From positions 1 through 32,797 of the forward strand of contig CALGZA010000089.1 of the NCBI GenBank assembly GCA_937934595.1: a stretch of 32,797 nt of DNA. Reading direction: 5' to 3'. The stretch's first letter is position 1. Each line of letters opens with the position of its first letter. This document shows positions 19,914-22,597 of the stretch, one piece after another. The position numbers and the translations under genes were made by a program. Source of the DNA: an uncultured Verrucomicrobiales bacterium (GTDB lineage: Bacteria > Verrucomicrobiota > Verrucomicrobiia > Verrucomicrobiales > Akkermansiaceae). The notes below the pieces were generated by a model. It saw only the letters and a list, made by a program, of their open reading frames with translations, did no database searches and was not told where the DNA came from.

Positions 19914-19919
19914 AAGGAG
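19914..19919 (+). promoter_or_regulatory. Strong Shine-Dalgarno before infA with no standard start codon
   Basis: AAGGAG is followed by TAATTATAGCG. No ATG, GTG or TTG lies at a usable distance; the frame offers ATT (19922) and ATA (19925). This site decides the proposed infA start, since most genes in the window lack such a sequence. Confidence 0.6.
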
Positions 19920-19924
19920 TAATT

Positions 19925-20254
19925 ATAGCGGGAAGACCAAAAAAAGGAGCTGGCGCGAGAAAACGCGCATCAGGAAGATCTAAGCCAGTAAGAAGAAAAG
20001 GCGGAGGACGTCCCTTCAAGAAGAAGGATGCGGACGATCGTGATGATAAGGCGGTGGAAATCGAGGGTATAGTGAAGGTTGTATTGGCTGGAACTATGTT
20101 TAAGGTTGAGTTACCGAGTGGTCATGAGGTTTTGGCGCATATTTCTGGTAAGATGAGAAAGCGGTTCATCCGGCTTGTGGTGGGTGATAGGGTGCGCATG
20201 GAAATGTCACCTTATGATACGACTAAGGCTAGGATTACTTTCCGGATAGGGTAG
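19925..20254 (+). CDS. infA: Translation initiation factor IF-1 with basic N-terminal extension and non-standard start
   Basis: IF-1 binds the ribosomal A site during initiation. The S1-like core is clear: [52 protein letters not shown]. The only standard start is GTG 20054, which would remove the residues normally before this core and has no properly spaced Shine-Dalgarno. The same frame is open upstream to TAG 19895-19897. It encodes a strongly basic stretch ([19 protein letters not shown], then [18 protein letters not shown]) beginning five bases after AAGGAG. I therefore place the start at ATA 19925 (109 residues); ATT 19922 is the alternative. A sequencing error in an ATG is also possible. 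The core identity is certain; the start is not. Confidence 0.8.
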
Positions 20255-20300: not shown

Positions 20301-20651
20301 ATGGTTAGGGTATATGGTTATAGTGGCTGAGGTAATTGTCGTAAGGCTAACCGTTGGTTGGCTGATCGTGGGATTGAGTATGAGTCTATTCAGGTAAGGG
20401 ATCAGCCTCCGAGTGTGGCTGAGCTGGAGTTAGCTTATGCTAGTCTGGGACTGAAGAGGTTGTTTAATAGTTCTGGTATGGATTACCGGAGTCTGGGTAT
20501 GAAGGATGTATTGCCTACGTTGAGTGATGCTGAGGCTTTGGGGTTACTGAGTGAGAATGGTAATTTGGTAAAGCGTCCTTTGGTGGTGGGTGCTGATGGT
20601 GCTATGAATGGGTTTAAGGAGGCTGAGTGGGAGTCTTTTTTTGCAACTTAG
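20301..20651 (+). CDS. ArsC/Spx-family thiol reductase, probable selenoprotein (in-frame TGA at codon 10)
   Basis: Read from ATG 20301 through TGA 20328-20330, the frame gives 116 residues, the usual length of the ArsC/Spx/YffB family. The start reads VYGYSG-U-GNCRKANRWL, where the family has Y-x-x-C-x-x-C-R-K-A. The TGA replaces the first, catalytic Cys and leaves C13 as resolving Cys. The rest is typical: LFNSSGMDYRSLGMKD, LSDAEALGLLSENGNLVKRP, GFKEAEWESFF. A hairpin at 20346-20362 fits a bacterial SECIS. If TGA were a stop, translation would have to begin at TTG 20358 and would lose the active site. Function: redox reduction of arsenate or a disulfide (family-level inference). The gene lies 46 bases after infA and may be co-transcribed. 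No Shine-Dalgarno is seen. The alternative is a pseudogene with one nonsense change. TGA is a normal stop in other genes here. Confidence 0.72.
20346..20362 (+). promoter_or_regulatory. Candidate bacterial SECIS hairpin
   Basis: GCTAACC (20346-20352), loop GTT (20353-20355), GGTTGGC (20356-20362): seven pairs with one G-U, extendable by G45-T63. The loop starts with G and lies 22 bases after the TGA. From memory, bacterial SECIS models ask for a 4-16 bp upper stem, a loop of 3-14 bases with G among its first two, and 16-37 bases from UGA to the loop. All are met. Confidence 0.6.
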
Positions 20652-20788: not shown

Positions 20789-22597
20789 ATGTCAGCAGAG
20801 CAGATTTTCTTAAGTATCCTAATCGTGGTGGTGTTTGCTGCGTTTGTGAAAGAGTGGGTTTCTGCTGAGTTGGTGGCGATAGGTGCATTGATGGGTTGTG
20901 TGTTTGCTGGGGTTTTGAGTATGGATGGTGGAGCGTCTAATAATGCGCTGAGTGTTTTTTCTAATCCGGCGCCGATTACGGTGGCGTGTATGTTTATACT
21001 GAGTGCTGCTTTGGAGCGCACGGGAGTGATTGATATGTTGGGGGTGTGGTTTGAGAAGTTGGTGGGGACGAGTCCTGTAAAGATGCTGGCGAGTTTGATA
21101 GTGATAGTGGCGTTGTTATCTGGGTTTGTGAATAATACGCCTGTTGTGGTGGTTTTCATGCCGATTGTTTTGGCGATATGCCGCAAGCAGGGTTATAAGG
21201 CATCTAAGTATCTGATTCCTTTGTCTTATGCTGCGATAGTGGGTGGTACGATGACTATTATTGGGACGTCGACTAATTTGATTGCTTCTGGGATAGCTTC
21301 TGAGAAGGGGATGGAGCCGTTTACGATGTTTGAGATTATGCCATTGGGTCTTATTTTTGTGGGTGTAACTTTTGTTTATTTGATGACGGTGGGGCAGAAA
21401 TTATTACCTGATAGGGTGACATTGGCTACTTTGATTGATAGTAGTGCGAGTAGGGAGTTTATAACTCATGCTTTTGTTAAGAGTGGCTCGCCTTTGATAG
21501 GTAAGGCTTATGCTGAGACTGAAATAGGGAAGCTTAAGAAGGTGAGGGTGCTGGAGGTGCTTAGGAATGGTGCGCGTGTGAGGGATCCATTGCCTGAGGT
21601 TATGTTTGAGGATGGTGATGAGATTGTTTTTAAGGGTAAGTTGGCGGCTGTGATGGGTGTCTCGAAGGCTGAGGGGATAGATGTGCGTGGGAATGAGAGG
21701 TTAGGGCTTGAGGAGATGCGGACTGAGTCAGCGGTGTTGATGGAGGGGATTTTAGGGCCCGATTCATCGCTTGCTGGTAAGAGCTTGAAGGAGTTGAATT
21801 TTAGGCAGCGGTTTGGGGTGTTGATATTGGCAGTTCATCGCAGAGGTAGGAACTTGCGGGAGAGGTTTGAGGATGAGAAGTTGGCTTTTGGTGATACGTT
21901 GTTGGTGCAGGGGCCTGCAGCGAAGATGCGGAGGTTGTTTGAGGAGAAGGATTTTATTAATTTGAGTGAGCCCAAGCATGTGGAGACTAGGAGTAATAAA
22001 TCACCGATAGCGATAGGAGCTATATTGTTGTTTATGCTGGTGGGTGCGTTAGGTGGGCCTATTGGATTTGAGGTTCCAGTGGTTCAGACGGCGTTGTTTT
22101 GTGCGATGTTGGTGATGTTTACTGGGTGTATTAATCCGCAGGAGGCTTATGAGGCGATAGAGTGGAAGGTGGTGTTTATGATATTTGGGATGTTGGGGGT
22201 GGGGCTTGCGATGAGTGAGTCTGGTTTAGCTCAGTTGATAGGGAGTAGTGTGGAGAGTTTTAAGGAGAATCCGCAGTTAGTGCTGTGTTTGGTGTATGTG
22301 GTGGCAGCGGTGATGACTGAGTTGATAAGTAATAATGCTGTGGCGGCTTTGTTGACTCCTATAGCGATATCTGTGGCATTGGGGATGGGTGTGGATGCAC
22401 GGCCGTTTGTGGTGGCTGTGATGTTTGGTTCTTCTGCTAGTTTTTCTACGCCAATTGGTTACCAGACGAATACGTTTGTGTATGGGGCTGGGGGTTATAA
22501 GTTTGGTGATTTCTTTAAGGCAGGTTTTCCGTTGGCAGTGCTGATGTGGTTGATAGCGAGTTATGTGATTCCTTTGATATGGCCGTTTGAGGTTTAG
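20789..22597 (+). CDS. SLC13/DASS-family permease with two RCK_C (TrkA-C) domains
   Basis: Inner-membrane anion symporter-like protein of 602 residues. The N-terminal membrane half has LLSGFVNNTPVVVVFMPIV and the substrate-loop motif GTSTNLIASG. Two soluble RCK_C-like domains follow at about 215-300 (SPLIGKAYAETEIGKLKKVRVLEVLRNG, FEDGDEIVFKG) and 315-395 (SSLAGKSLKELNFRQRFGVLILAVHRRG, FGDTLLVQG). The C-terminal membrane half carries a second signature (ELISNNAVAALLTPI, FSTPIGYQTNTFVYG). This arrangement is that of the sulfate- or dicarboxylate-type SLC13 proteins with internal TrkA-C domains. The substrate is probably sulfate or another small anion, not decidable here. The TAG stop overlaps the stop of the opposing DUF1501 gene by three bases. 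Confidence 0.92.
   Translation: MSAEQIFLSILIVVVFAAFVKEWVSAELVAIGALMGCVFAGVLSMDGGASNNALSVFSNPAPITVACMFILSAALERTGVIDMLGVWFEKLVGTSPVKMLASLIVIVALLSGFVNNTPVVVVFMPIVLAICRKQGYKASKYLIPLSYAAIVGGTMTIIGTSTNLIASGIASEKGMEPFTMFEIMPLGLIFVGVTFVYLMTVGQKLLPDRVTLATLIDSSASREFITHAFVKSGSPLIGKAYAETEIGKLKKVRVLEVLRNGARVRDPLPEVMFEDGDEIVFKGKLAAVMGVSKAEGIDVRGNERLGLEEMRTESAVLMEGILGPDSSLAGKSLKELNFRQRFGVLILAVHRRGRNLRERFEDEKLAFGDTLLVQGPAAKMRRLFEEKDFINLSEPKHVETRSNKSPIAIGAILLFMLVGALGGPIGFEVPVVQTALFCAMLVMFTGCINPQEAYEAIEWKVVFMIFGMLGVGLAMSESGLAQLIGSSVESFKENPQLVLCLVYVVAAVMTELISNNAVAALLTPIAISVALGMGVDARPFVVAVMFGSSASFSTPIGYQTNTFVYGAGGYKFGDFFKAGFPLAVLMWLIASYVIPLIWPFEV

Follow-up and report, generated by a model that had tools for sequence, protein, structure and literature searches.

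A very probable selenocysteine codon at the active site of an ArsC/Spx-like protein from a Rubritalea-type genus of Verrucomicrobiales

A putative ArsC/Spx-like gene of an uncultured Verrucomicrobiales bacterium (Akkermansiaceae; assembly GCA_937934595.1) is interrupted by one in-frame TGA, which raises the question of whether this codon marks a broken gene or is read as an amino acid. The stretch of DNA analyzed, hereafter called the window, has a length of 32,797 nucleotides and is one entire contig (CALGZA010000089.1) of a 123-contig genome of 3.15 Mb that is 95.9% complete. The stop codon inside the gene is very probably a signal for selenocysteine (Sec) at the active site, and the features on which this reading rests are listed in Table 1 together with the neighboring genes.

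Table 1. Positions in the window of the putative selenoprotein gene, its functional sites, and its neighbors.
Feature	Position	Strand	Remarks
Upstream neighbor, IF-1 (infA)-like frame	19925..20254	+	IF-1 name assigned by eye from the translation; the ATA start is a guess
ArsC/Spx-like (TIGR01617) selenoprotein gene, putative	20301..20651	+	116 residues, ATG start, TAG stop; five orthologs with the same TGA
UGA codon for putative Sec10, the U of the UxxC active site	20328..20330	+	TGA in 6/6 Sec orthologs, Cys in the five other genus homologs
Cys13 codon (TGT), likely resolving cysteine by inferred role	20337..20339	+	Column invariant in 31/31 aligned proteins (row L076 short at its 3' end)
bSECIS-like hairpin within the coding region	20345..20363	+	Arms 20345-20351 and 20357-20363; loop region 20352-20356, G at 20353
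Downstream neighbor, CitMHS-type transporter with TrkA-C domains	20789..22597	+	Conserved neighbor

Translated with the TGA read as U, the frame contains this single TGA at residue 10, within the motif YGYSG-U-GNC-RKA. The protein sequence matched the Pfam ArsC family (3.2e-15) and, with the TGA read as Cys, scored 85.8 bits against the TIGR01617 model (curated cut-off 75.05), which makes it a member of that family. A preliminary description, prepared from the nucleotide sequence, had proposed an intact ArsC/Spx frame with one TGA at the first Cys of the CxxC motif, and both the translation and the two model matches agree with this. The same description had held that standard gene calling would leave a TTG-started fragment; in the list of open reading frames with ATG, GTG or TTG starts, the gene is represented only by such a fragment of 97 amino acids downstream of the TGA (20358-20651).

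Homologs were identified at four taxonomic levels. In the genus of the source organism, which we infer to be Rubritalea or near Rubritalea, 11 of 12 genomes contained a homolog, and the alignment of these close homologs, proposed beforehand as a check, placed TGA at exactly codon 10 in six of them and Cys in the other five. The five TGA-containing orthologs besides the window gene were 72-81% identical to the window protein, had open frames and came from separate genomes; for four of the six Sec genes an identical coding sequence was also present in public contigs. A homolog was present in 77 of the 117 family genomes, and TGA was restricted to the same six. The window's copy was the only one with TGA in an even draw of genomes from the order (homolog in 130 of 189) and in one from the phylum (124 of 387), since the matches included, besides the window's genome, a single genus member (G143) in the former draw and none in the latter. 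All aligned homologs without TGA had Cys at position 10, and among the matches listed from the four levels the internal stops elsewhere amounted to one, a TAA. As expected of a selenoprotein, UGA replaces a conserved redox Cys, and the UGA and the frame downstream of it are kept together in 6 of the 11 genus homologs.

Substitutions after the TGA were calculated for the 15 pairs of the six Sec genes. The proportion of synonymous differences (pS) was 0.53-0.83 and that of nonsynonymous differences (pN) 0.09-0.24; dN/dS was 0.05-0.17 in ten pairs, with dS beyond estimate in the other five. The segment downstream of the TGA evolves as translated sequence under purifying selection. A lone TGA in an otherwise normal frame has the look of a single nonsense mutation, and a recent pseudogene with a chance TGA, or a sequencing error in the assembly, would also agree with a TGA unique to the window's copy among the order and phylum genomes with a homolog. 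Both accounts are, however, contradicted by six separate genomes that share the TGA, in which the sequence after it is under purifying selection and contains no other internal stop. Random further stops and lost coding constraint, which the preliminary description had named as signs against a selenoprotein, did not occur in the relatives, where the frames are open and dN/dS is low. The TGA common to six species effectively refutes the pseudogene and the sequencing error, to which we assign practically no probability.

To be made, a bacterial selenoprotein requires SelA, SelB, SelD and tRNA-Sec, and the window's genome contains all four. SelA (510 bits), SelB (301 bits) and SelD (375 bits) scored above their cut-offs, and the search for tRNA-Sec, which covered the window's genome only, returned a tRNA with 57.1 bits (gathering score 47) and the anticodon UCA. 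A genome lacking the Sec machinery, the other outcome foreseen as contrary to the proposal, was thus not what the search for selA, selB, selC and selD returned, and the presence of this machinery also argues against a pseudogene. The SelD gene of the window's genome (L048, G000:C6:15481-16407) itself has an in-frame TGA in the motif CGG-U-ASK; one in-frame TGA in the same motif was found in 11 of the 11 genus genomes with a SelD over the cut-off, the twelfth having a weak SelD match only. SelD of the window's genome and of the ten others is a TGA-containing selenoprotein and serves as a positive control.

SelA was matched in 11 of 12 genus genomes and in 55 of 117 family genomes (54 over the cut-off), and 9 of the 12 genus genomes had a SelB above the cut-off. 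Among the six genomes with the TGA-containing gene, SelD was found in all six, SelA in five and SelB over the cut-off in five, with SelA, SelB and SelD together in four. No SelA match was obtained in G578 (83% complete) and no SelB above the cut-off in G585 (58% complete), both of which carry the TGA-containing gene; these are the two least complete of the six genomes, and we put the two gaps down to missing sequence.

If TGA stood for an ordinary amino acid such as Trp throughout the organism, as in a changed genetic code, the frame would likewise be read through, and TGA does serve as the terminal stop in just 3 of the 20 window frames checked. These three putative frames nevertheless end at TGA where, in a tightly packed series of frames, they overlap the start that follows. 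Moreover, the aligned homologs without TGA have Cys at position 10, and the window's genome has both SelB and a tRNA-Sec with the anticodon UCA. Given this tRNA and the frames ending at TGA, reassignment of the codon is most unlikely.

A hairpin following the TGA had been reported in the preliminary description, and folding of the region confirmed it at the position given in Table 1, where its loop begins 22 nt downstream of the UGA. The minimum-energy fold in the window has 8 pairs and the loop GUU, while the five other Sec orthologs have at the same place a 7-pair stem and the 5-nt loop AGUUG. According to PMC13188914, a bacterial SECIS (bSECIS) has a loop of 3-9 nt, a stem of 4-16 bp, a G in the first two loop positions, a distance of 16-37 nt from the UGA and an energy of at most -7.5 kcal/mol. 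The window hairpin lies within these limits; its energy was -13.9 kcal/mol for 51 nt (z -2.15), and 7 of 200 shuffled sequences were equally stable.

For comparisons across many sites we used a simplified in-house version of these bSECIS criteria, hereafter the simple bSECIS test. It was passed by 6 of 6 Sec orthologs, by 1 of 5 genus Cys homologs and by 11 of 52 other Verrucomicrobiota Cys homologs. Across 20 window frames, 658 of 8300 codon positions passed as well, so that the hairpin by itself is weak evidence, and its energy, in view of this base rate and of the equally stable shuffles, serves as supporting evidence and not as proof.

The codons that encode the hairpin were more informative. 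In the window, codons +6 to +11 are GCT AAC CGT TGG TTG GCT; the five other species with the Sec gene have GCT AAC AGT TGG TTA GCT. Among the Sec genes, third-position change was 0.07 in the hairpin codons vs 0.54 further on, and codons +6 to +11 had the lowest third-position change of 95 six-codon segments (0.056 vs a median of 0.533). When five columns were drawn at random from codon +12 onward, 7 of 100000 draws gave a value as low; this sampling takes no account of how the six species are related. At the same codons the third positions of the five genus Cys homologs changed at 0.66 vs 0.75 in the codons after, and those of 14 family Cys homologs, a picked subset, at 0.67 vs 0.66. The residues after the active site are mostly AxKWL in the Cys forms and AN[SR]WLA in the Sec forms, a shift of the kind expected if an RNA hairpin constrains the protein. 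Within the stem two changes were seen, both one-sided and both still paired (U-A to U-G and G-U to A-U). No compensatory double changes occurred among the six Sec genes, in which 5 of 7 pairs are invariant and the pair counts equal those of shuffles; covariation therefore speaks neither for nor against the stem, and the case for an RNA element is carried by the frozen third positions together with the position and the shape of the hairpin. Judged from this comparison of sequences, the hairpin behaves as a bacterial SECIS.

The proposal of a genuine UxxC selenoprotein is supported by the Sec machinery, the TGA kept in relatives, the constrained frame and the SECIS-like hairpin with its frozen third positions. 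Translation may proceed as follows: UGA codon 10 would be decoded as Sec by tRNA-Sec(UCA) carried on SelB, and the hairpin, 22 nt downstream of the UGA, would recruit SelB. The parts of this decoding system exist and are conserved, and they probably act together. In the finished protein, to judge from the chemistry of the family, the selenolate of Sec10 would attack an oxidized substrate, Cys13 would resolve the resulting bond, and thioredoxin or glutaredoxin would then reset the active site. We give a probability of about 0.96 to the reading in which UGA is read as Sec by means of tRNA-Sec, SelB and the hairpin, having most likely arisen locally from a Cys codon in a Rubritalea-type ancestor.

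The local origin was addressed with a phylogenetic tree of 73 proteins in which the Sec residue was masked. The tree comprised the six Sec and five Cys proteins of the genus and two hand-picked sets, namely 40 of the 52 other Verrucomicrobiota Cys homologs, which are the best-scoring loci of the order and phylum draws and form a selection of the homologs there, and 22 of the 59 putative Sec forms from elsewhere described below; its Cys homologs were all of Verrucomicrobiota. The six Sec genes formed one clade (100/98), with the Cys homolog L199 as its nearest neighbor (96/87) followed by the Cys homolog L004 (91/86). This clade was nested in a Verrucomicrobiota clade (100/99), outside of which the 22 TGA forms from other phyla were placed. 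The position of the Sec clade inside Verrucomicrobiota Cys homologs makes a local change from Cys to Sec likely and its simplest account: a Cys codon would have become UGA in an ancestor that was already equipped with the Sec machinery and gave rise to six Rubritalea-type species, and the coding sequence just downstream of the new UGA would have been reshaped into a SECIS. L199 (positions 1501-1848, genome G563), the Cys homolog that is sister to the Sec clade, has a SECIS-like hairpin after its Cys codon. This hairpin may be a precursor that eased the change from Cys to Sec, or a relic of lost Sec; relic hairpins after a change from Sec to Cys are described in PMC1794560. With this hairpin in L199, the change may have run either way, as a gain of Sec at the base of the Sec clade or as its loss in L199.

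The genomic context of the gene, compared within a distance of 1.5 kb, agreed with the tree. Both the infA-like gene and the transporter were found next to 5 of 5 other Sec genes and 4 of 5 genus Cys genes, the fifth (L201) having the infA-like gene only. In the rest of the family both neighbors were present at 2 of 3 Cys genes, and the third (L009) had neither. The infA-like gene is a conserved neighbor and stands outside the Sec mechanism. Its frame has a strong, conserved ribosome-binding site, AAGGAG, and no ATG, GTG or TTG nearby. In the region 19914-19935 (+), AAGGAGTAATTATAGC is identical across the six Sec-bearing genomes, so that the infA-like gene possibly has an AUA or AUU start and a basic N-terminal extension.

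Selenoproteins of the ArsC type have been described before. The literature consulted comprised PMC13188914, PMC9312934, PMC1088965, PMC2398784, PMC1794560 and PMC5029168. The Global Ocean Sampling (GOS) survey has an 'Arsenate reductase 2' (cd03032) of the UxxC type with a table count of 42, which we take as the number of sequences, and like the window protein it is an ArsC-family protein with Sec first in UxxC. An arsenate reductase-like UxxC selenoprotein also appears in a 2022 review, with the GOS paper as source, and in a 2026 review, under NF041106. The 'Arsenate reductase' of the Sargasso Sea selenoproteome (COG1393, 14 sequences) shares with the window protein the ArsC type and Sec in the redox motif, but has UxxS where the window protein has UxxC. 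NF041106, the ArsC family (seleno)protein model, was rejected as a family label, as the window protein was not listed by it at E-values up to 1 and the close relative L148 scored 19.8 bits vs the cut-off of 85. The Cys forms of TIGR01617 (arsC_related), for example 3gkx of Bacteroides fragilis, have the same family and fold but carry Cys where the window protein has the putative Sec.

When GTDB contigs were scanned for the ArsC motif with TGA, at least 119 stretches matched, and those listed comprised 63 full ArsC-like frames, 5 short ones and 51 without a match at 1e-3. The 63 full-length frames belonged to six phyla, 53 of them to Bacillota; four duplicated genus genomes with identical coding sequence, which leaves at least 59 ArsC/Spx-like frames, from Bacillota and a few further phyla, whose TGA stands at the codon that carries it in the window gene. 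Those listed were 23-44% identical to the window protein, the 22 of 59 placed in the tree fell outside the Verrucomicrobiota clade, and 43 of 59 passed the simple bSECIS test. The listed frames are L109, L160, L161, L187, L076 and 54 others, with Vagococcus, Enterococcus and Salisediminibacterium among the named sources. Since Sec-containing ArsC-like UxxC proteins are already catalogued, the window gene adds a member to a known kind of selenoprotein. The string "Verrucomicrobi" had no occurrence in the available main text of the selenoprotein papers checked for it, no paper combining Rubritalea and selenoprotein was found in the open literature searched, and Spx combined with selenocysteine and selenoprotein returned, by titles and the beginnings of abstracts, only papers on selenium in plants.

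The function of the protein was approached through its predicted structure, calculated with Cys at position 10 (mean pLDDT 96.8). Its fold matched that of 3gkx, an ArsC-related protein with 40% identity (Z 18.5 and rmsd 1.6 over 114 residues), and also those of Spx (Z up to 16.9) and E. coli ArsC (Z up to 13.2); 3gkx, 2m46 and 3fz4, the closest solved relatives, are named ArsC-related or putative arsenate reductase. The protein scored 40.8 bits with the TIGR00014 arsenate reductase (glutaredoxin) model (cut-off 106.05) and 36.4 bits with the NF002459 Spx regulator model (cut-off 123), and by these scores would belong to neither the TIGR00014 arsenate reductases nor the Spx models. A thiol or selenol reductase is, from family and fold assignment, the most likely role, and that of a redox-sensing regulator is possible. 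If UGA encodes Sec in a true glutaredoxin-dependent arsenate reductase, membership in the ArsC Pfam family and the match to E. coli ArsC (1s3d, Z 13.2) would follow, and the adjoining CitMHS-type transporter weakly resembles ArsB models, with scores far short of the cut-offs; with TIGR00014 so far from its cut-off, and with no arsenic genes recognized among the 9 other window frames scanned, we consider this quite improbable.

The product could instead be an Spx/MgsR-like redox-sensing regulator that binds RNA polymerase, with Sec in place of Cys, rather than a reductase. It exceeds the cut-off of TIGR01617, which is named the Spx/MgsR family RNA polymerase-binding regulatory protein, and its fold matches that of B. 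subtilis Spx with the C-terminal domain of polymerase alpha (3gfk, Z 16.7, rmsd 1.7 over 113 residues). The TIGR01617 name, however, spans proteins of untested function, the Spx models are far under their cut-offs (36.4 vs 123, 30.5 vs 152 and 24.5 vs 159) and the closest solved relatives carry names from the arsenate reductase side, so that a regulator is unlikely while keeping a small share of the probability. Slightly less likely again is the more specific proposal of a selenium redox switch on transcription, in which a Sec-containing Spx/MgsR-like polymerase binder would have arisen through a change from Cys to Sec and the building of a SECIS traceable species by species.

The locus is of interest in two respects. 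A gene caller without Sec models would reduce the selenoprotein gene to the 97-residue fragment. Of greater use is the setting: six Sec and five Cys homologs occur in one genus, with neighbors common to the Sec and most of the Cys forms and with SelA in 11 of 12 members, and these genes provide a compact natural series for studying the conversion of a Cys codon to Sec and the installation of a SECIS inside a coding sequence.
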